Assembly: GCF_964355755.1 (NCBI RefSeq)
Contig: NC_092675.1
Span: forward strand, 6,110,312 to 6,174,311
Direction: 5' to 3'
Length of the DNA: 64,000 nt
DNA from: Antedon mediterranea
Taxonomy: Eukaryota; Echinodermata; Crinoidea; Comatulida; Antedonidae
Numbering within the stretch: the stretch's first letter is position 1; every line of letters begins with the position of its first letter. The notes under the pieces were generated by a model. The model saw only the letters and a list, made by a program, of their open reading frames with translations, ran no database searches and was not told the origin of the DNA. A program made the position numbers and the translations under genes. Of the stretch, positions 527 to 62,103 are shown piece by piece.

Positions 527-1438
527 TTTTGTTTTATCCAAATCAGCAAGATCCATTTTATTTAGAACCAGCAAACTTGGTCTAACACCCATCAACTCTT
601 TCAGTATTGTGTTTCTTCCTGCTATAGGAATGTTTAATAAATATAGGAGTTTTTTTTGTTTTGGTATAAAATAAAAAAAGAGAATTGTCCGATGTTGAAG
701 AGGATTGTGAATGGGTTTAAATGAGAGAATCAAGGTTATTATTTTGTAAACATTTCTATATATTTAGGTACATGTGGCCAAGGATTACCAATAGCAAATG
801 ATTCACTGTCAGATATAGGTGGTAGTCCCCCAGAACAGGGGCTATTTTGTGAACCAGTTCACCAGGGTAACCCTTACTTGTCTCAACTAATGAACTGGTT
901 TATAGTCCTCCAGAATTAGGAGCGAGTCACCTCCTAGTTATTTCAAAACTAAACAAATTTGACATTTTGAGGTTTGAAATGATACACACCTTTTGCGCAG
1001 GAAAGTTTTTTTTATCACTAGTTATCACAAACATAATATATTTCATTTCTTGTACCTATTTTGAAATTTCATAATTGTGTTGTAACAAATAAAAAGAGGG
1101 ATTAAGCTGTTATGCCAGCCATTTCTTATTGTTGTTAACCTAGTGATAACTTTTAATATTTTCGTTATAAAAGGATATTCTTGCATCATGAACTTCAACA
1201 ACTAAATCAACTTTCTTCAATGTTGCCATCATTTTCTTCATTCCTGAAATATGAAGTAGAAATAATGAAAAAAGTATATTTATATACGTTACGTCGTTAC
1301 CAATTTATTTTTTATGTTTTTCGTTTTTTGTACTGTAGTACGTTACTCGCCTTTTGCCATATGTGATGGAAACCAATGTGTCAGGTCTGTACTTCCAAAC
1401 TGAAAGATTTGACGAAAGATTCGATCTGGTTTACTCAT
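527..1438 (-). CDS. MTG1: Mitochondrial ribosome-associated GTPase 1, N-terminal exons only (partial)
   Basis: MTG1 is a circularly permuted YlqF/RbgA-type GTPase that helps assemble the large mitoribosomal subunit at the mitochondrial inner membrane (family knowledge). Three exons are seen on the minus strand: 1438-1351 (start ATG at 1438-1436), 1243-1179 and 631-527. Joined, they read M-S-K-P-D-R at the start, then WFPSHMAKGMKKM, then VDLVVEVHDARIPIAGRN and finally the G4 motif LVLNKMDLAD. This is the G4-first order expected of a permuted GTPase; G1 and G3 lie beyond the left edge. Two splice junctions are unusual: the first intron starts GC (AAAG then GCGAGT), and the second appears to be AT-AC, starting ATATCCTTT at 1178 and ending AC at 633-632. 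Frame is kept only with these boundaries. The gene is head-to-head with SEC31A. The N-terminus looks short, so a start further upstream is possible. Confidence 0.88.
812..960. other. MTG1 U12-type intron interior, no gene
   Basis: Interior of the MTG1 AT-AC intron (632-1178). It holds a partly self-similar stretch around 815-940 (words like accagttca and gaactggt recur) but no coding signal. Confidence 0.3.
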
Positions 1439-3362: not shown

Positions 3363-4168
3363 AATTGTTACTGTTATCAGATGATTACATATCTGCATAG
3401 TTACCATATGCCATGAGTTAATGCAAGAAGCTTTTATAGTTTCACTTTATTGTAATTGTATAAAGTACTAATTAATGTAGGAATAATTAAACATCTAATT
3501 ACTGTAAAAGGGATTAGTCAGTGTTTTCGTTTATAATCAATATTGAAATAGTTTGAAGGAATAATTGATCATTAATAAAATCATAACTCTATGAAAAAGT
3601 GGCCATGACGCAGTCTGTACATAGAGTTAAAATAATAACAAAACTGATTTTTGTTTTTCTGAAAAAACATATACTGTATAAAATACTTGATATTATTGTT
3701 ACTGAGTGTAAGGTAAAGTTAGTTTTGCAAGTTAATTGAAAATATACAGTACTGTAATACAACTAAAAGATACACTGTACTTTGTTTTGACATAAAAAAA
3801 CATTTTTAGCAGAAATCTCCATTTCTTTCATACACTGTTCCTTTTCACATACCTTCTGTACAATTGCATATACAGTGCAGTATGTGTCATTTCCTCTGCA
3901 CCCAGTTTAACCATGACTAGATTTTTAAAAATAAACTGAATAATGTGTCAAACTTAAATGTCTAAATAAAGATGTGCACGTTAATTTATCATTCAATAGC
4001 TTATTAAATAAGGTCATTTTTATTTGAATTTATATTTCTAAAAACTGAAATTACAGTATAGTTGTAATTATTATCTGTATTTACTAATTCAAGTAATTTG
4101 TATTACATCCAGTTATTATTGAAGATTATTTTACTTATTTTCAAATTAATTTACTTAGAGACGACAAA

Positions 4169-7100
4169 ATGAAGGTGAAAGAGATAGACATAACGGCCAA
4201 TGTGGCTTGGAGCCCATCATCTCAATACCCAATATACCTAGCCACCGGGACAGCTGCACAGCAACTAGATGCCACATTCAGCACCAGCGCTGCGCTAGAC
4301 ATTTACTCTCTGAGCCTGAATCAACCTGGCCTAGCTATGGAGAAAAAGGCTAGTCTTAGTACATCAATGAGGTAATTTACATTCAAACAACTTTCAGTTC
4401 AGTGCTTACTGTAGAGGCACCCTGTATTTTGCGCTATATAAATTAAACATTATTATTATTATTTACTAAAATAAAGAATTTTAAATAAAAAGATTATATA
4501 TGTGCAGTTTACAATGATTTCAAAGAATTATATCTATTTTTCAATGTTGCTACTTTTGGTGTGCTGGCATAGTTATTAATATAAAATGAAATAGCCATTA
4601 AAAGTGTTAGTTACAGACATCATTTGGAATAAGTTATCAATGATAATCTCCACAGACACTTTCCAGGAAGTTGTCTACAATAGTTTTCCTACTACTGTAT
4701 TAATACTATAGACATTAAAGAAAGTTGGAAGTACATTTACAGTACAGTATTTCAAGGTCTGAATATTCAATAACCAGAAGAGCTTACTATTTGCAATAAA
4801 TATTACAATATAATAAATATGGCCGTACTGCGTTAAAACACCGGTTCTCGTTAGATAACCGAAGTTAAGCAACATTGGGCCTGTTTAGAGCTTGGATGGA
4901 AGACCGTCTGGGATCGCGTCGAGTGCTGTATATTTGGGAGAGTGATGGTGTAATGATAATATCAGACAAGCATGTGATATTCATGGGTCCGAAAGCCTAC
5001 CTGTACCATATTAACTGTATCCTTAAGCAAGATGCTCATTGCCTTAGCCATTGGTTTCGTATACTGTACATACATTTTTTTTAAATCCAGTTATAAATTT
5101 ATACACTTATTTTATCTATAGATTTCATAAGTTAGTGTGGGGAAGTCATGGAATAAGCAGTGAGAACCAAGATGCTAGTGGCCTTATAATAGGAGGTACA
5201 GACAATGGACGAATATACTTATATGATGCACATAAAGTTTTGAATGAAGAAAAGGATCCTCTAGTTGAAATGATAGAAAGGGTTAGTATATAAAATATAT
5301 CTGTTACAAAAACTTGTGTTCTTAAGGTTTTGTGATATAGTATTTGATATCTTATACAGTATCGTTGTTTTAAAGATGTATTGTCCTCCTGAAAAAATAA
5401 TTCTTAACTAAATTTGTGTTGAATATTCCATTTTAATGTAACATAATAGTTATCCACTTTGAAAAAAAATTGAATCGAAAAAAAATGTATTTACCTGAAA
5501 AAACTGTAATTTAAGGCAAAAAATGGCCACATGTCTGCCAGCCAGTGGGTTTTTGGTTGAATTTAACCATTTATTTTGTCAATTTATAGGTGAAAACATT
5601 ATTTTGTTTTCATTTTTTTCTATGGAAGGGATTAACTTTATTAAAACTACAAAATAACTTATTCAAAGTCTGATTTAACTTCATTTTTCATGTATTTGGG
5701 GGACAATGCATCTTTAAAAATTATATTATTTTAGGATAACATGTAACTTAAGCTTTTTATATTTGCAGCATACTGGTACAGTCCGTGCGTTAGATGTGAA
5801 CCCATTTCAAGCAAATCTGTTAGCATCCGGAGCAAGCGATTCTGAAATATATGTGTGGGATCTTAACAATACAACCTCACCAATGACACCTGGAGCAAAA
5901 TCACAGGTAACCTTTGATAAACATCTGTTGATCACTTTATAAACCATAAATAACGATTTCCTACCTTTACGTAGGTATTTTGTACTAATAATTTTGTGGA
6001 TGTTTAATAGCTGTATATTTTACTAGCCAATATGCCATTTTCGTACCTAAAACTATAACTGCTGTACAGGTTGCCTAGGTGCAGTTCTTGCATTGGTAAA
6101 TGAGTCATGCAGTGGTTAGCTTAGCAGGCAAATATGACTATAATACAGTATACCTATATTTGGTCTATTTTATTACTTTATAATTATCTTCTTTTCTTTG
6201 TTTGCAGCCTCCAGATGAAATAAGTTGCTTAGCATGGAACAGGCAGGTGCAACATATATTAGCATCCACCTGCCCAGGTGGACGTTGTGTTGTATGGGAT
6301 TTACGTAAAAATGAGCCTATTATCAAAGTCACTGACCACAGCTCAAGAGTAAGTTTGCAATGGTTCGGGGTGTTCACACATAATGACTCTACAATGACAT
6401 TATAAATGTCAGTACAATGTCATTACACTATGTATCTTGTCAAACAATGCAAATTTTCCCCATTTCCCAAAATGGCAGCACCCTTGAATTGATTATTACT
6501 AAAACTAATTAATGAAAGCTTATTTCATTTTTAATGAAATGAAATGCGTGTTTATCTGACAGATGCGTTGTAAAGTTGTAGAGTGGCATCCAGAGGTAGC
6601 CACTCAGATGGCATTAGCGTCAGAAGATGATCACTCACCAGTTATACAAATGTGGGATCTTAGGTTTGCTACTTCACCACTAAAGGTCCTGGAGAATCAT
6701 CAGAGGTTAGTAGAAAAATACCATATTTAAATAAACTGGTATACAAAGACACAATTGTAATCAAAATGTGTAGGCATATCACATATACTATAAAATCAAT
6801 GGAGCGGAACATGATTTTGCATATTCGCACAGACCTGTATTCATCGCATTGTATCTGTGGATTTTAGGGATGTTAAACTAGATAATATGTTGTAAAAAAT
6901 GAATTTTTAAAAGGAGTAATAAATATAAAGTTGGTTGTACACCACATATATTTAGTTCTTAAAAGAACTGTTGAGTTTCTCGATATACTTTGATCATCCT
7001 CAGGAGTGAGAATGCAAAAAGTCCAGGAAACTCGGAATATAAGTGAAATAGGGTAAGACTGGTGTGAAAGCTAAAACAATAGCAAGGTTCACAGTGGGAG

Positions 7101-10100
7101 GGTTGAAACTAGCTATAGAAGAGCATTGTTTCTCATAAACAATATAAGTAGCTATAGAATAGCATTGTTCTTCATGAACAATGATGAATGGAAACTAGCT
7201 ATAGAAGAGCATTTTTCTCATGAACAATTGTTAATTACCAATTTAGTTCTATTTTTGTTATTAATCATTTTTTTCAGAGGAATACTGTCAATAGCCTGGT
7301 GTCCACAAGATTGCGACCTCCTCCTAAGTTGTGGCAAAGACAATCGCATTTTATGTTGGAATCCCAACAGTGCAGTAGCAGGAGGAGAAGTAACCTATGA
7401 ACTTCCAACCAGCAGCCAATGGTGTTTTGACGTTCAATGGTGTCCTCGTAATCCTGGTTTGATATCTACGGCATCGTTTGACGGTCACGTTAGCGTGCAT
7501 TCTCTGATGGGTGGATCTTATCCAGATAATCAACACTCGCAACAACAACAAAGTAATGTAAGTTAATAACCATATTTCTAGCAATCAAAACAATTTAGTG
7601 GAAATCCGTAGGACTGCTTAATCCCAAGTTAATTCCTAATTTAATTTGTTTTCTTATTTTTACTTGGTAAAATAGAATTTTGCTAAGTATACTACATGTT
7701 TTGTTAGCACGATAGCGTCCACAATTTTATAACAAAGTTATCATTCTGAATGTTTGGATGTTAGTAGGTATATACTTACAGAACATGCCTATTGATTTTC
7801 AGGAAAATTGATATATTGGTCACGTCACAAAAGCTTATTATATTAAAATCTGACTTACTAGCTGTATCTTTCATACAAGGTATTAAATAGCATGCCCACT
7901 CTATTCTTTTAACATTGACCAAAATATCAAGTAGTGAGCCCTCGTTCTCCAGATATAGTTTTTCACTCAGTTTTTGAGTGCTTTTATTTATTATTATTAT
8001 TTTTCTTTTGTTAGGTTGCCTCATCATTTCCTGGAATGGACCCTTACAATCAAGCACCTGGCCAACAACAGCAACAAGTACCAACAGAAGCTGTCATCCT
8101 TAAGAAGCCACCAAAGTGGTTAAGAAGGCCTGTCGGAGCTACCTTCGCTGTAAGTACATTCCTGTACTGGTCTCTTGACTATTTAATATATATTTATGTG
8201 GCAGTATAATATGGCGTGATACTTAGATAAGAAAAATAGAAAAAAATGCCAATAAAAATGTTTGGTTTTTTTTCAGTTTGGCGGTAAACTAGTATCCTTT
8301 GAAAATTCCAAGCCGCAGCAGGCTCACCAACCAACGCCTAAACAAGTGTCTATCAGTCAAGTTGTCACAGAAACGGATTTCATTGATCGTTCTAAACACT
8401 TGGAAAACGCCCTCAATGAGGGTGGTTTTGTCGAGTTTTGTAGTAACAAAATTGCTGCATCTGCAGATGAAATTGAGAAGCAAATGTGGAATTTCTTAAA
8501 AGTAAGTCATAAAGTTATGTTTTTACTTCTTTTATATTCATTAGCAGAATTGACATGACGTGACCCCTAGGGAAGAAGTATGTAGTTGAAACTTCTTCTA
8601 ATGCTTTGTCTACACTGTAAAACTATGTGACAAAAAATGTGATGTGCCCATATATGGACATGATGATGTCATATCACTACCATATTTGGGCATATCACTA
8701 CCATATTTGGGCACATAGTTTGATTGTGTAGACAGAGCTTAAGAACACAGCGCCATGAGCAATGTTAATACAAATAGAAATGTTTCAAATAATCCAAAGA
8801 TTTTATCAATTTAATGAATTCCTTATTTTATTCATTTAGGTTAATTTTGAAAAAGAACCGCGTAACCATTTTATAACATTGCTCGGCCACGACTCGCACG
8901 AGTTGACCAAGAAAGTGGCGCTAGCAACAGGAGCTAAAACCACCCTTCAGAACGGTAATAAAGAAGGCGTGAATATGGAAGAATTAGCAGCAAAAATGGA
9001 AACTATCAATACAGATGATGATGATAGTGAATTGAATTTAGGCAGTGGGACGCAGTCTCCAAGTGTTGGATCCAAGGTTTGTTGTCATAATGTTTATAAT
9101 ATTTTCTAATTTCACATTTTTAATGTTATATGATGTAAGGGCATGTGACACATTTTATTGAAACATTGGATTACTTATCGTTAGTTCAAATGCAACTATC
9201 TTGTATCCAAGACAAGACACTCTACACCAAGGTGTATAAATGGGTACCTGGTTAGACAATACAAGATACAACTTTGCTTTGATTGCTAGGTTCAATACGG
9301 GAGTATTTTTTCATACGCGTTTGATAAAAAAAAAATGACCGGGGTAATAATGCTATGTTTCCATATGTGTTGAAAACGTGTGTAGTTGGTAGCTTTCTTG
9401 TAGATGCTTTAATTGTAGAATGTAATTTTTTTTTTTTATTTTGGTCTGTGCTCTGTTCTTGGTTGACCAACTACCATACAGTATAGCACCTGTCTTTCCT
9501 TGCCTTTAATATTTGTTTGTTATTTTCTATGTATTGTATGGCAGAAATTGAATAAATAAAAAGTAAATAAAAATAAATAATAACAAAAAAACTCTGGTAA
9601 TAGAAGCATTACCCATTAAGCGCGATATAAGAATAAAATGTTTAAAAAAATTAAAATTAGGATGAATTTCTTGTATAATGTTATGAATATACGTATTTTG
9701 TTTACATTCGCAGACTCCAAGTGATGTTCTTGGTGATAGCGAGGGAGCAGCTGCATTTGATGCAATTGCTGCAGGAGGTCCAGTAGAAGTTGAGAACAGG
9801 ACTGATGGACAACAGGATCTAAGACCTGATTCACCTTTTAGTATAAGTAACAATGAAGGCAAGTACAATGCATTTGTAGCAAAGAAACCTTCAATAGCAC
9901 TACTAAAATTCATTTGTGTCGGCAAAGCTATTGAAGCCACAAATAGTGATAAATTTAAAGAGATAGTGTCCAATTAAAAGCCACTCCTAAAGTCCTCTTT
10001 GTCAGACTTCCTTGTAAAGTATTCAACCACCAAGTAGTATGTAAGCAAAGAAGGATTACTTAATTCAAGCCAACAAACTAAACATACCCGTAAGTGATTG

Positions 10101-13100: not shown

Positions 13101-16100
13101 TACCTTACGGGTACAGCACCAACAAGATTGATAATAATATTATCTGATAATTTTGATTCAGGATCTTGTAGAGAAGGTGATGATATTACGAGAAGCAGTG
13201 TCCCAGAAGCAAGGCTATGTTGAGAATGGTGGCAGTGTTATTGCTCAGAAACTTAGCAGCTATGCTCAGCTGCTAGCATCACAAGGAAGCTTAGCTACTG
13301 CTGTTAATTACCTTAGAGACTCTAACGAGGTATGCAGTAGCTTTTACAATCTTAATTCATACATCTGTTAGACTAGTTGATGTTACTTGATGTTAGTAAT
13401 ATCCCTTTCAAAGTTTTAGATAAATAGTATTTTTTATTAAGAATTTAGTAACAGCAATAGCTGAATTGTTATAATATTTACCTTATATATAAATGAATAA
13501 AATATCAAAAGTTATTACAAAAAAACATATTTATACATAGAGAGTATATAAAATATCAAATAACAAACAAACATTAAAAACATACACATAAACATTAAAA
13601 ACAGAATACACGGCCATACTGCTTTGAAACACCGGTTCTCGTCAGATCACCGAAGTTAAGCAACGTTGGGCCCGGTTGCGTTCTGGATGGGAGACCGTCT
13701 AGAAATCGTGGCGGGTGCTGTATATACTGGAGAGTGATGGTGTAATGGTAATATCGGACTAGCATGTGATAGGCATGGGTTCGAGGTTATCTGTACCATA
13801 CTAATTGCATCCTTAGGCAAGATGCTTTACTCTAATTGCCTAATCTGGTAGACGCTGCACTGCTGGCTGCCGTGGGTCCGTGGAGGGCCTAATCCGAATT
13901 TCCTCACTGAGGACAAATATTAATACAAAATACAAAAAAAAATACAAAAATAGAGAATATAACTTTGTTGATGTAAAGTTTGAGTGAGAATCCTGAGGAC
14001 GATCAAAGCATATTGATCGAACCGTTGAGAAACGCAACAGTTTTTTTCAGAACTAATATACGTGGTCTACCGCAAAATTTATATCAACATTTGATTTCGC
14101 CATGCAAACCTTCAAAGAATATAACATTATTTAAAAGCTGGATTTCATTAGAACATACTGTCGCCCTATTGCTCACAAGTTATATAAAATACATCAAATA
14201 TAGCTGTTTTAAACATTTTTTGATTGATATTTTTAGCCTATTGTAGCAACTTTACTTGAAAGATTGTATAAAGCTCAAGGACAAACGCCCACAAGTTATC
14301 AACAGCAGAATAGAGCGCCAGTTAAACCAACAACCAATCAAGTACCCCGAAACCAGGTATAGATAATGTGATTGGTCAGAATTTTTGCACTATTCTGACA
14401 AATTAATTTAGTAGCCTGATGCAAAACTAAAAATTACTGAGTATGATTGAGTATGTGAAAGTTAGGTAAAATTATTGGCTGGGTTTATACTCGAATTATG
14501 GACTTGGCAATTATGACCCACTATATGACCCCCGGGAGAGATGCGTCATGGGTGCATCATTTACAAATAATTACTGACGCAGGGGTGCATCAAAAAACCT
14601 AAATGGTACCTCACATCAATGAAAAATGTTGTGTCAATGTCCGTCACTTTACCACCCACCATATCATAAACAACATGGTCAAAGTGCGTCAAAATGGGTA
14701 CGTCATGGCCACCTAAAGGTAAGTTATATTTTTGGCGCACAGGTGAGTCATGGTATTCATAAGGTATGACGCACATCGGACAAAGGAAGCACCTCTCCCG
14801 GGGGTCGTATGGTGGGTCAAACAATTGACAAGTGCATTACATAAAAATGGATTCAGCAAAATCTAAATTTAACCTAAATTAGGAGGTGGGATTCTACCTG
14901 AGCATGTGATTATATTTGGTCATATTATCTGTTAATATTATACAATTATACAAGACCGTTTTTTAGAAATATAAAAAAGCAAAGTATTAAGAAAGATAGA
15001 ATATTAAAAAGTATAATTGTAATAAAAACTTTGTTTTTCTTTCAGGGAGTGAATTCATTCAAAACCACCACCACTTCAAGTAGCTCATATTACAACACTC
15101 AAGTTAGTTCACAAACTCAACCAAACAATGCATACTACAACCAACAACAGCCATCTCAAGGCTTTGCTTCTAACACACCAGCACCTAGCACTCAAAAATC
15201 CACCAATATATACTCCAAACAAGGCTTAAATCAACGAGCATACCCAAAGATGAACCAAGGCACTGCAGGCCAGAACCAATATTATCAACCCACAGGAAAC
15301 CCATCGTACACAGGTCAACAGGTCACAAACACGGCGTACTCAAGTGCTGGACCTACTAGTTTTTACAATCGAACAAATTACACACAATCGCCTAGTGCAG
15401 CACCAGCCCCCAATCAAGCATACGCTAACCAGAATCAGATGCCATCGCAGCCAATGCAGCATACACCAATGCAGCCCACACAGGTGGCAGCGAGCCAACA
15501 ACCCATAACATCTTTGCCACCTAGACCAAAACCAGACCAGGGAGCATGGAATGATCCTCCACCTATCAAACAAAAGGTATAGTTGAATAGAAGTTTTGTT
15601 TTGAAATTTTAACAAATTTGGGGGTTTACGGCCATTTTTTGGAAAACAAAATTTACTTCAAGTGACTCCCTGCTTGATTTTCATTGCTTGATTCTAGTTT
15701 TTTCGCTTTTGGGTTGAAATACAGAAATGCATCTTAAATAAATAAACATGGTTTATCAACTAAATAATTGTAACATTTTATGTTTTAAACATCATTTCAT
15801 ATTTAAAACATCATTTCATATACATTTTACATGAACATTGTATTTACAGTGATTCATTATGTTACATAGAATTTATGTTTTTTGGAGAGTATGTATATGT
15901 AAAAACATTATTCTTGTTTTGATAGGAGCAACGTTCATTTGTAGCCCCAGTACCAATCACAGCACCAATCATTGGTGGCCCTGAGCCTGCTCCCCACCAA
16001 GGTATGAACCCAGCAGCACCTGGTGGTCCCACAGGCTATGGCCAACAAGTATACAACACACAAATGTATAACGCACAGCAACAAGCTAAAGAAGTACAAG

Positions 16101-45732: not shown

Positions 45733-45852
45733 TTTGTCGTTGAAATAAAACTTTGAGCTCTGACTTCTGTTTTAAACTAGTTTGATTTTGTTGTCATAAT
45801 GCGATGTTTAATACAGTACTTTAAATAGTGAAATTTGTAGAGTATACTTTTG

Positions 45853-46887
45853 GGGTGTAGGCCTAAGTGGAATTGTCTTCCTGCATGGTAGTGCGTTGGG
45901 TGTAGGCCTAAGTGGAATTGTCTTCCTGCATGGTAGTGCGTTGGGTGTAGGCCTAAGTGGAATTGTCTTCCTGCATGGTAGTGCGTTGGGTGTAGGCCTA
46001 AGTGGAATTGTCTTCCTGCATGGTAGTGCGTTGGGTGTAGGCCTAAGTGGAATTGTCTTCCTGCATGGTAGTGCGTTGGGTGTAGGCCTAAGTGGAATTG
46101 TCTTCCTGCATGGTAGTGCGTTGGGTGTAGGCCTAAGTGGAATTGTCTTCCTGCATGGTAGTGCGTTGGGTGTAGGCCTAAGTGGAATTGTCTTCCTGCA
46201 TGGTAGTGCGTTGGGTGTAGGCCTAAGTGGAATTGTCTTCCTGCATGGTAGTGCGTTGGGTGTAGGCCTAAGTGGAATTGTCTTCCTGCATGGTAGTGCG
46301 TTGGGTGTAGGCCTAAGTGGAATTGTCTTCCTGCATGGTAGTGCGTTGGGTGTAGGCCTAAGTGGAATTGTCTTCCTGCATGGTAGTGCGTTGGGTGTAG
46401 GCCTAAGTGGAATTGTCTTCCTGCATGGTAGTGCGTTGGGTGTAGGCCTAAGTGGAATTGTCTTCCTGCATGGTAGTGCGTTGGGTGTAGGCCTAAGTGG
46501 AATTGTCTTCCTGCATGGTAGTGCGTTGGGTGTAGGCCTAAGTGGAATTGTCTTCCTGCATGGTAGTGCGTTGGGTGTAGGCCTAAGTGGAATTGTCTTC
46601 CTGCATGGTAGTGCGTTGGGTGTAGGCCTAAGTGGAATTGTCTTCCTGCATGGTAGTGCGTTGGGTGTAGGCCTAAGTGGAATTGTCTTCCTGCATGGTA
46701 GTGCGTTGGGTGTAGGCCTAAGTGGAATTGTCTTCCTGCATGGTAGTGCGTTGGGTGTAGGCCTAAGTGGAATTGTCTTCCTGCATGGTAGTGCGTTGGG
46801 TGTAGGCCTAAGTGGAATTGTCTTCCTGCATGGTAGTGCGTTGGGTGTAGGCCTAAGTGGAATTGTCTTCCTGCATGGTAGTGCGTT
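45853..46887 (+). repeat. 45-bp minisatellite, 23 identical copies
   Basis: The unit starts gggtgtaggcctaagtggaa, continues ttgtcttcctgcatggtagt and ends gcgtt. 1035 bp equals exactly 23 units and I see no mismatch between them. The unit length is a multiple of 3, so long open frames occur on both strands (45896-46909 plus, 46943-45777 minus), but they have no start context, splice signals or non-repetitive domain, so I do not call a gene. Confidence 0.97.
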
Positions 46888-47594
46888 AGACTTGGTAAAT
46901 TTACACTAATTGGTTGGTATACCACAGGGGCCGTAATCACCATTCACACTTGGTCTAAGGGAATTTATGGAAAATACTTAAATTATCTCAGTTTGATTGG
47001 TGAATACAGCCACAGTATCCCACATTGGCTGAAGATAATATATATGGTATATATATTTCCTCCCAAAAACTACATATAGGAGGGAAGGGGGTAGATAACT
47101 GAGGAACAAGTTGCTAACACCTGTCAGAAGATGTAATACTGCAGAAAGCTTAACGCTAATCTCACATGTATAAGGTATAATGATTTACATTAGAGTATTG
47201 TCATTGCAAAATAAACGTGATACATTAAAAAGAGAAACAACCAAAATTGCTTAGCACAATCAACTTTATTTTATAAACACAACATATCTTCATCCTCACT
47301 TTAAAACAAAACACTAATTTCTGTCAATATTCAATGTAATTAAACACAGTATCGTAAATGTTCGAATTAATAACTGTTTTTCACTGCTGTTGCGCAAGCT
47401 CTATGGATAAAAATATACCATATTTGTGTGTGCCATGTATTTTATAAACGCCCCAGCACTTATTTGATCAATCACAGTATTTTACTAATAGCAACACTCG
47501 ATAGCAAATTAAACCATTCAACCTAGGATTTCATTGTGATATATTGCAACAGTACTGATTGTTACCCTGTATAAATCAAATTGATTACACAATA

Positions 47595-60000: not shown

Positions 60001-62103
60001 CTATAATATAAGTAATATGAAATACCAACCTATTGCACCCTTTGTATTTTTGTCATTTAGAACACCAAAAGCAATTGATGGTAAAATACACGCAAAATAG
60101 AGAAATATAGTTGCAGCCATCATCTTCTGTACTGTCTTATGCCCTACAAAGCCATCCTTGAAATCTGACCAATAGTATGGCAGACGTCGTTGAATGTCAC
60201 TTCGTAAGCCACGTCCAAAATACCAATTTGGAAACTAAAAAAATTCCAGAGATACAGTATTGTAAATTTGTATATTATTAAGTTAGATCCCACCCACTTT
60301 ATATTTATGATAAATTTAGACACAAATTAATGTACTCTCAAGTATAATTCCACTCCCCAATTTTTATTTTTATTTTTTATTTTATTCAATCGAAACCAAA
60401 AGCGATAATTACCGCACTAACAGGTTTGATACAGCACCTTGATTGGTCAGCAATACTGATTTCAAAAGCCTAATGGGACCCAGCTCCATATACAGCACCC
60501 GATATTCCCAGATGGTCTCCCATCCAAGCTCTAACCAGGCCCAACATTGCTTAACTTCGGTGATCTGACGAGAACCGGTGTTTCAACGTGGTAAAGCCAT
60601 ATAAATGCCAAATTGTTATACCTACAGTAGGCCTCCTACCTACAGTAGTATTTTATCATGTTATGATTATCATCTAACTTAAAAAGATACAAACAAGAAT
60701 ATTTAATTAAATAGTATAAATTGAATAGTTTATAAAAATAGAAATGCTGCCGTCTTAATATTAGCTATCAGTATCATTCATTAATTATTAACATGAAAAA
60801 TTATACATTTTTGATAGAACATTAAAATATTTCATGTGAAAAAAGCACGCATAGTTAACCCAGCACAAACACGCTTCTGTAATTTGATAGGCAAATTGTG
60901 TAAATTACTTTCTATGTTGAACCTAGTGTTTTTCAATATCATATGACCCAGTTAAATTTGACCTTTTCCATTTCAATTTTTGTATCATTTCTGCCTAATT
61001 ATCTATACAACTTTGTAGAAATTAGTTTTTTTCACAAAAGTGTGTTCAATTATTTGAAAACTGTATCCATTAACGCAAACATTTTGTCCATTTTAATCTA
61101 AGATATAGATGAAAAAAATTGATTGTAAAATAATATTTTATACTATTATATGATACAAATATTTAAAGTGATCAAGTCAACATCTTCTTGTCGCTTGTGT
61201 GGCTGATAACTTAATGTGTACAACAAAATTGCAGTACTCGCATATAACGTCATTGCACTCTGGATGACCTCAGAGTGCGATAGAACTTAAATTATGTAAT
61301 ATTATACAAATAATGAATGTTTTATATTCGTGTAATGGTACAAATAATGGCATGAGGTGAATGATGAAAGGTTATATCAATCAAGCGTAATCCTAACAGG
61401 CCTAGCTTAGTAGTTACTAGTAGTAGTACTGTATACTAGCTTGGCTGAAAGGCAAAACTTCGACAGAAAATTGGAACTTATCTAGGCTAATTATGGTTTT
61501 TCCAACGATTCCACGTCTTGTAGGGATGTCCCCAATAATTAATCAAAATCCTAAAAACGATCTAAAGCTAATTTAAATGCCTTTTTAAATGAAATTAGTA
61601 CATATATATCTCCAAATCGTACACAAAAATCTGTTGCTGTTGCATATCTCGCAGTGGTGTTTACAACAAACAGAGGCAGGACGACAGGTGGCGCTGTTGT
61701 ATTTCACAGTAATTTTTGTATAGGGGATTTTTTTTCATCCGCCAAAACGTTTTTTTTTTCGTACACAAAAACGTTTAAAAAAGTACTATTAAACGATCGT
61801 TTAATAGTGCGTACTATTGCACGCCATGCGACCCACAATCGTCCAATCAAATGACAGGAATTTATTTAGGTGTTGTATAACATGTGATATCATCTTCCAA
61901 TCTAATGACAAGAAATTAAATAATAGTGTCAGGTAACCAACCTTCTATGTCGGGAAATTTATTTTTGTTTTTTTATATTTAAATACTCACATTATCTGGT
62001 TCATCAAAAGAGGTTGTTGACCTAAGTCTTGCACGTGACGGTATTCTGTGGATGTAGCGCAGGTCTTTTCTTATAGCTAAAAGCACTTGATAGAACTCCT
62101 CCT
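51015..62103 (-). CDS. SLC4A11: SLC4A11-type transporter, C-terminal part (partial)
   Basis: Membrane protein of the SLC4 family; vertebrate SLC4A11 moves H+/OH-, NH3 or water rather than bicarbonate. Exons (minus): 62103-61991, 60234-60030, 59550-59437, 57782-57650, 56887-56814, 55079-54905, 54699-54593, 54206-54041, 52880-52707, 52276-52081, 51924-51755, 51078-51015. Phases fit; 562 residues are seen, i.e. the membrane domain and C-terminus. SLC4 signatures: [102 protein letters not shown]. Choice of A11 rests on [26 protein letters not shown] and a C-terminus ending just after [10 protein letters not shown], unlike the long tails of bicarbonate transporters. The N-terminal cytoplasmic part and start lie beyond the right edge. 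No further exon found from 62104 to 64000. Confidence 0.93.
51177..51555 (-). mobile_element. tRNA-derived SINE
   Basis: Minus strand head 51553-51485: GTGGCCGAATGGTTAAG (A-box) and GGGTTCAGGGCTC (B-box-like), resembling a Leu/Ser-type tRNA; the 3' end is the gcgctatataaat tail shared with 10145 and 4415. Last SLC4A11 intron. Confidence 0.7.
53745..53995. repeat. Dispersed repeat with gtgggattatacctgag
   Basis: tctggtataatcccaccacc at the left and gtgggattatacctgaggat at the right are partly inverse, so it may be a worn TIR element; the interior matches 25190-25290. SLC4A11 intron. Confidence 0.55.
54785..54870 (+). mobile_element. Probable LINE 3' end fragment
   Basis: tttttattttgtataatttg ... 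ctgaaataaaagaaatgaat gaat: a CR1/RTE-style 3' terminus with GAAT repeats. Confidence 0.35.
55181..55425. mobile_element. Palindromic MITE, family B copy 5 (longest)
   Basis: taaagcgtggttcccactag at left, tagtgggaaccacgcttta at right; the inside has further gttgcg/cgcaac motifs. SLC4A11 intron. Confidence 0.8.
55510..55670. repeat. Dispersed repeat with ggtgggattatact
   Basis: ggggatgggactatactcgg and attagggggtgggattatac; related to 14845, 53745 and 60295. SLC4A11 intron. Confidence 0.5.
55755..55945 (+). repeat. Direct duplication of ~50 bp
   Basis: acacaacgcgaagtggatag and atacagattgtacgtggtat occur at about 55763 and again at about 55903, near identical, 140 bp apart. SLC4A11 intron. Confidence 0.75.
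56370..56545 (-). mobile_element. LINE 3' end fragment
   Basis: caagattcaagattcaattt attgtcac on plus: minus-strand LINE end with a (GAATCTT)n tail, similar in design to the LINE at 26067. SLC4A11 intron. Confidence 0.55.
57246..57361. mobile_element. Short inverted-repeat element
   Basis: ttctgtaatacagtgtcata at left and gacgctgtattacagaa at right, about 30-bp arms. SLC4A11 intron. Confidence 0.55.
57413..57571. mobile_element. Short MITE with tcaactcttct ends
   Basis: tcaactcttcttaaaccgga at left, tccgatttcagaagagttga at right, about 20-bp TIR. SLC4A11 intron. Confidence 0.65.
57905..58395 (+). repeat. ~111-bp tandem repeat, four copies
   Basis: Units contain gtttcccctaaagaggggtg, tcccatcaatagaggttggc and tttatccttgtttattttac. 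The word tagagg recurs at 57968, 58080, 58190 and 58301. A dispersed single unit sits at 23225. SLC4A11 intron. Confidence 0.85.
58652..58749. mobile_element. Hairpin MITE, family A copy 12 (short)
   Basis: aacctctgtctacactag at left and agtttgatagtttagacaga gctt at right; middle largely deleted. SLC4A11 intron. Confidence 0.65.
59652..59753 (-). pseudogene. Duplicated splice acceptor and exon start of SLC4A11
   Basis: A direct copy of 59522-59629, about 130 bp away. It repeats the last part of the intron, the acceptor (aaatag on minus) and the first 23 nt of the exon 59550-59437, but not the rest. On the minus strand it precedes the true exon. Confidence 0.85.
60295..60362. repeat. Fragment of the gtgggattatac repeat
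   Basis: ctctcaagtataattccact ccccaat is the inverse of the right end seen at 55610 and 53960. Confidence 0.4.
60365..60605 (-). mobile_element. 5S rRNA-derived SINE, family 2
   Basis: Minus strand: a complete 5S-like head (CACCGGTTCTCGTCAGATCACC, AAGTTAAGCAATGTTGGGCC, GGATGGGAGACCATCTGGGA), then ggagctgggtcccattaggc, gaccaatcaaggtgctgtat and tttggtttcgattgaataaa. The body and tail match 23920-24190, with a deletion of its central part. SLC4A11 intron, same strand as the gene. Confidence 0.85.
61785..61806. repeat. 22-bp perfect palindrome
   Basis: ctattaaacg followed by atcgtttaatag reads the same on both strands. SLC4A11 intron; a chance match in AT-rich DNA is possible. Confidence 0.6.

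Follow-up and report, generated by a model that had tools for sequence, protein, structure and literature searches.

From its sequence, intron 2 of MTG1 in Antedon mediterranea appears to be a U12-type AT-AC spliceosomal intron that separates exons 2 and 3 in phase 0; we put the probability of this reading at about 0.88. The intron is 547 nt long and occupies positions 1178 to 632 on the minus strand of the window (the whole stretch of 64,000 nucleotides that was analysed), exactly where an earlier note on this DNA had placed it. The U12-type AT-AC assignment is the best reading on account of the donor, the reading frame, the AC end, the absence of a polypyrimidine tract and the genomic context. 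Given the weak branch site, most of the weight falls on the donor.

The start of the window falls within the gene, and the whole of MTG1 was obtained by reading 8 kb past that start. The resulting gene model, on the minus strand, has ten exons and 945 coding bases and encodes 314 amino acids uninterrupted by a stop, a complete MTG1. Residues 8-312 of the product match mammalian MTG1 chains in the PDB (E 1.3e-89), and the TIGR03596 YlqF model covers residues 21-312 with a score slightly below its curated cut-off, which is expected of a eukaryotic relative. The homology is full-length, and the product has the G motifs in permuted order as well as the DARIPxxGRN segment. On these sequence matches we identify the gene as MTG1, mitochondrial ribosome-associated GTPase 1, and the full-length match to the mammalian protein (E about 1e-89) bears out the name given in the earlier note. 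One copy was detected in the genome, and no retrocopy carrying the spliced junction was found there, all ten matches being the gene's own exons. The parts of the gene to which the argument refers are as follows.

1351 to 1438, minus strand: exon 1, coding, 88 nt, start ATGAGTAAACC (gene model, aligns to mammalian MTG1)
1244 to 1350, minus strand: intron 1, 107 nt, GC-AG (GCGAGT...TTTCAG), U2-like (gene model)
1179 to 1243, minus strand: exon 2, 65 nt, ending ...CATGATGCAAGA, read as HDAR, phase 0
632 to 1178, minus strand: intron 2, 547 nt, phase 0, probably U12-type AT-AC
1169 to 1178, minus strand: 5' splice site of intron 2, ATATCCTTTT, nine of nine positions matching the U12 AT-AC consensus ATATCCTTT
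736 to 901, no strand assigned: dispersed-repeat fragment inside intron 2, from genomic matches
641 to 648, minus strand: candidate branch site TCCTATAT, five of eight positions matching the consensus; the A at 644 may bulge from the U12 helix
632 to 633, minus strand: 3' splice site AC, AAAC/ATTCCT at 632/631
527 to 631, minus strand: exon 3, 105 nt, start ATTCCTATAGCAGG, read as IPIAGR
L012 6229 to 6759, minus strand: intron 6, GC-AG, donor GCAAGT

Non-GT donors are found in three of the nine MTG1 introns (introns 1 and 6 being GC-AG and intron 2 AT-AC). The repeat fragment inside intron 2 has 39 further scored matches in the genome, at 80-86% identity and on many contigs. Elsewhere in the window, a SEC31-like gene, identified by eye, seems to begin at 4097 on the plus strand, head-to-head with MTG1. 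Three scattered matches to 5S rRNA, at 4815-4934 (plus), 13606-13726 (plus) and 60487-60604 (minus), score 62, 66 and 84.5 bits, above the gathering score, and may be either dispersed 5S genes or repeats of 5S origin. A minisatellite at 45780-46943, with repeats such as THYHAGRQFHLGLHP, is open in three frames and is probably non-coding.

Read on the minus strand, the last bases of exon 2 are GATGCAAGA, up to 1179, and ATATCCTTTT (1178-1169) follows directly. The intron closes with ATTAAAC at 632 (3' end TTATTAAAC), and exon 3 starts with ATTCCTATAGCAGG at 631. In the modelled junction 1179/631, GATGCAAGA is joined to ATTCCTATAG, so that HDAR runs into IPIAGRN. We enumerated all joins within set limits, up to 45 nt upstream and 120 nt downstream for the donor and up to 90 nt upstream and 50 nt downstream for the acceptor; 3771 of them were in frame and open. 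The best protein score was common to four placements, all giving HDAR followed by IPIAGRN; the tie arises from the synonymous Ile codons ATA and ATT. Their termini are AT-AC, TA-CA, AT-AT and TC-TT, and AT-AC is the only recognised pair among them. The intron thus has the AC 3' terminus of a U12 AT-AC intron, and no other placement that leaves the protein intact has recognised termini. This agrees with the earlier argument that exon 3 must begin where HDAR-IP-AGRN is kept, behind an AC acceptor, since no recognised termini other than AT-AC keep DARIPxxGRN. The best GT-AG, GC-AG and AT-AG joins had lower protein scores and broke DARIP. A GC-AG join near the site was rejected, as it deletes the conserved segment.

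Two of the joins to AG termini deserve comment. The earlier statement that no GT donor is available nearby was slightly too strong, for there is an open-frame GT at 1150 (AAAA/GTTATC). Spliced to the AG at 623-622, it would lengthen exon 2 by 28 nt and leave an ordinary U2 intron with canonical GT-AG termini. It is nevertheless a very poor donor, having neither A/G at +3 nor G at +5 and pairing with neither U11 nor U6atac. Moreover, its product, HDARISFYNENIKTGRN, loses the IP of the segment conserved in mammalian MTG1, and a perfect U12 donor would be left a coincidence. We consider this alternative very improbable. The same AG leads to an early stop when the exon ends at 1179, as had been noted earlier. 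It gives an open product, HDARISFSGRN, when joined to the donor ATAACG at 1168, and the protein score of this shifted AT-AG join, 235.5 against the best of 242.5, shows a slight deficit. Yet ATAACG suits neither spliceosome (U11 and U6atac pairing near 0 kcal/mol), the pairing of AT with AG termini is disfavoured (PMC3584512), and the product lacks the conserved proline; the shifted join is hardly credible.

The AT-AC reading is carried by its donor. ATATCCTTTT contains the extended U12 AT-AC donor ATATCCTT at +1 to +8, and the earlier description of the donor as canonical held at all nine positions of the published consensus (PMC2831892). ATATCCTTT is present once in the window, at this site. 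With the window modelled as a second-order Markov chain, the estimated probability that ATATCCTT falls by chance on any of the four placements that leave the protein unchanged is about 1e-4, and about 7e-6 if AC at the paired end is required as well. The only other RTATCCTTT in the window, GTATCCTTT at 8292, was considered as a further U12 donor and dropped, since it lies in an open frame and encodes LVSFE there.

The genome of A. mediterranea holds the minor-spliceosome machinery. U6atac (136.6 bits), U12 (125.7 bits), U4atac (97.6 bits) and two U11 genes (88.6 and 82.9 bits) were found, with the minor snRNA pairing elements AAAGGAGAG, GAGTAAGGAAAA and AAAAAGGGC intact, and exons of the CENATAC/CCDC84 family are present. 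Deuterostomes except tunicates have minor-intron densities near vertebrate levels (PMC10639083). Our literature search found no paper naming MTG1 as a minor-intron gene.

Control introns were sought in the same genome. PHB2 and KCMF1 contain AT-AC U12 introns common to fly and human (PMC2831892). Here the PHB2 intron reads GCAATCATG/ATATCCTTTC...AACCTTAACATTGATTTGTAC/CTGGGAG, with CCTTAAC before the AC, and that of KCMF1 reads GAGATCTT/ATATCCTTTTG...TTCTTAACGATAATGTTTAC/GATGAG, with the donor ATATCCTTTT, then TTCTTAAC, and the end TAC; both were matched to the fly and human introns at the level of the gene. The GT-AG controls came from JNK (GTATCCTT...CCTTTAAC...AG) and p38 (GTATCCTTTT...AG), which share the FPGTD position and have donors of the same kind as MTG1 intron 2. 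A sodium-channel segment, used as an AT-AC control query, gave no match and was uninformative. A pattern search of the genome, of very low power and confined to one narrow length band, found no short AT-AC intron that had a perfect branch site; its control likewise found none.

With the snRNAs of this genome, the MTG1 intron 2 donor can form 7 bp with U11 (-6.1 kcal/mol) and 7 bp with U6atac (-7.6 kcal/mol), and the p38 control donor has the same energies with both. With U6atac, the remaining eight MTG1 donors stay at -3.0 kcal/mol or weaker. The donors of introns 3, 6 and 7 reach -4.2 to -6.5 kcal/mol with U11, and the U11 energy alone therefore does not discriminate.

The branch site is the weaker element. 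U12 branch sites resemble TCCTTAAC and are placed some 10-20 nt before the 3' end. A search of the whole of MTG1 intron 2 for motifs like TTCCTTRAC, allowing one mismatch, found none. With a U12 branch matrix, an approximation based on the known consensus, TCCTATAT was the best candidate at 0.1 bits, a value equalled by 32% of random 60-mers. The branch-like TCCTATA of the earlier note is thus real and at the right distance, but its motif score is at chance level. On the same approximate matrix the control branch sites of PHB2, JNK and p38 score 8.4, 7.9 and 1.2 bits, respectively; in view of the p38 value, a weak branch site is not unique to MTG1 intron 2. Folding of the intron end against the U12 of this genome also picks TCCTATAT: UCCU and UAUUUAU form the helix, and between them a single A bulges out at 644, which is 12 nt from the last intron base. 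The duplex energy of -7.3 kcal/mol is at about the tenth percentile of random segments and is suggestive, no more, since on this measure neither of the controls PHB2 and JNK stands out. We also dismissed the branch-like TTATTAAAC at the very 3' end, which sits too close to the AC and could serve only with the AG at 622, an acceptor that is out of frame. The last 30 nt of the intron, AAACAAAAAAAACTCCTATATTTATTAAAC, are without a polypyrimidine tract, as expected of U12-type introns; this end is A-rich, and the T-rich tract of most other MTG1 introns is absent. A perfect donor thus accompanies a non-consensus branch site. Tentatively, U12 might pair with TCCU-A-UAUU such that the bulged branch adenosine comes one position before its usual place, a proposal that we think rather doubtful; if true, the strong donor (and CENATAC) would offset a degraded branch site.

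From these elements we infer that the minor spliceosome would remove intron 2 (1178-632, minus strand). U11, and then U6atac, would pair with ATATCCTTTT, and U12 would base-pair some 10-12 nt short of the 3' end, where the likeliest branch site is TCCTATAT with A 644 bulged. CENATAC, which promotes splicing of AT-AN minor introns in human cells (PMC8280824), may assist, as the intron is of the AT-AN subtype. In the predicted spliced product HDAR would be joined to IPIAGRN. Expression of MTG1 in A. mediterranea would then depend on the minor spliceosome, notably on its CENATAC-served AT-AN branch. Gene finders blind to AT-AC introns may misplace the junction 1179/631 and so break a core mitochondrial ribosome-assembly gene; recognition of intron 2 corrects the MTG1 gene model.

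Among known systems, the AT-AC termini are shared with the U2-type AT-AC introns of sodium-channel genes, such as SCN4A intron 21. The boundaries given here could therefore be right and the intron still be removed by the major spliceosome; such introns do exist, 85 major AT-AC introns having been counted in human (PMC8280824), and the weak branch site would suit this explanation. However, the sodium-channel U2-type AT-AC introns all have G at +5 (PMC2831892), whereas in the MTG1 donor both +5 and +6 are C and all nine positions agree with the U12 consensus. With its U6atac pairing of -7.6 kcal/mol, like that of the p38 control, and no polypyrimidine tract, removal by the major spliceosome is unlikely. 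The U12-type AT-AC (A-type minor) introns, exemplified by PHB2 and KCMF1, are the closer likeness: MTG1 intron 2 shares with them the ATATCCTT donor, the AC acceptor and the lack of a polypyrimidine tract. It differs in having TCCTATAT instead of a TCCTTAAC-like branch site, and its 3' end is AAC, in contrast to TAC in both controls. Its phase 0 is a minority phase among minor introns, averaging 22% (PMC10639083). The protein itself resembles the YlqF (RbgA) family of circularly permuted ribosome-assembly GTPases over its full length, with nothing unusual here. MTG1 intron 2 is one more case of a well-described intron class, and its sole oddity is the weak branch site.
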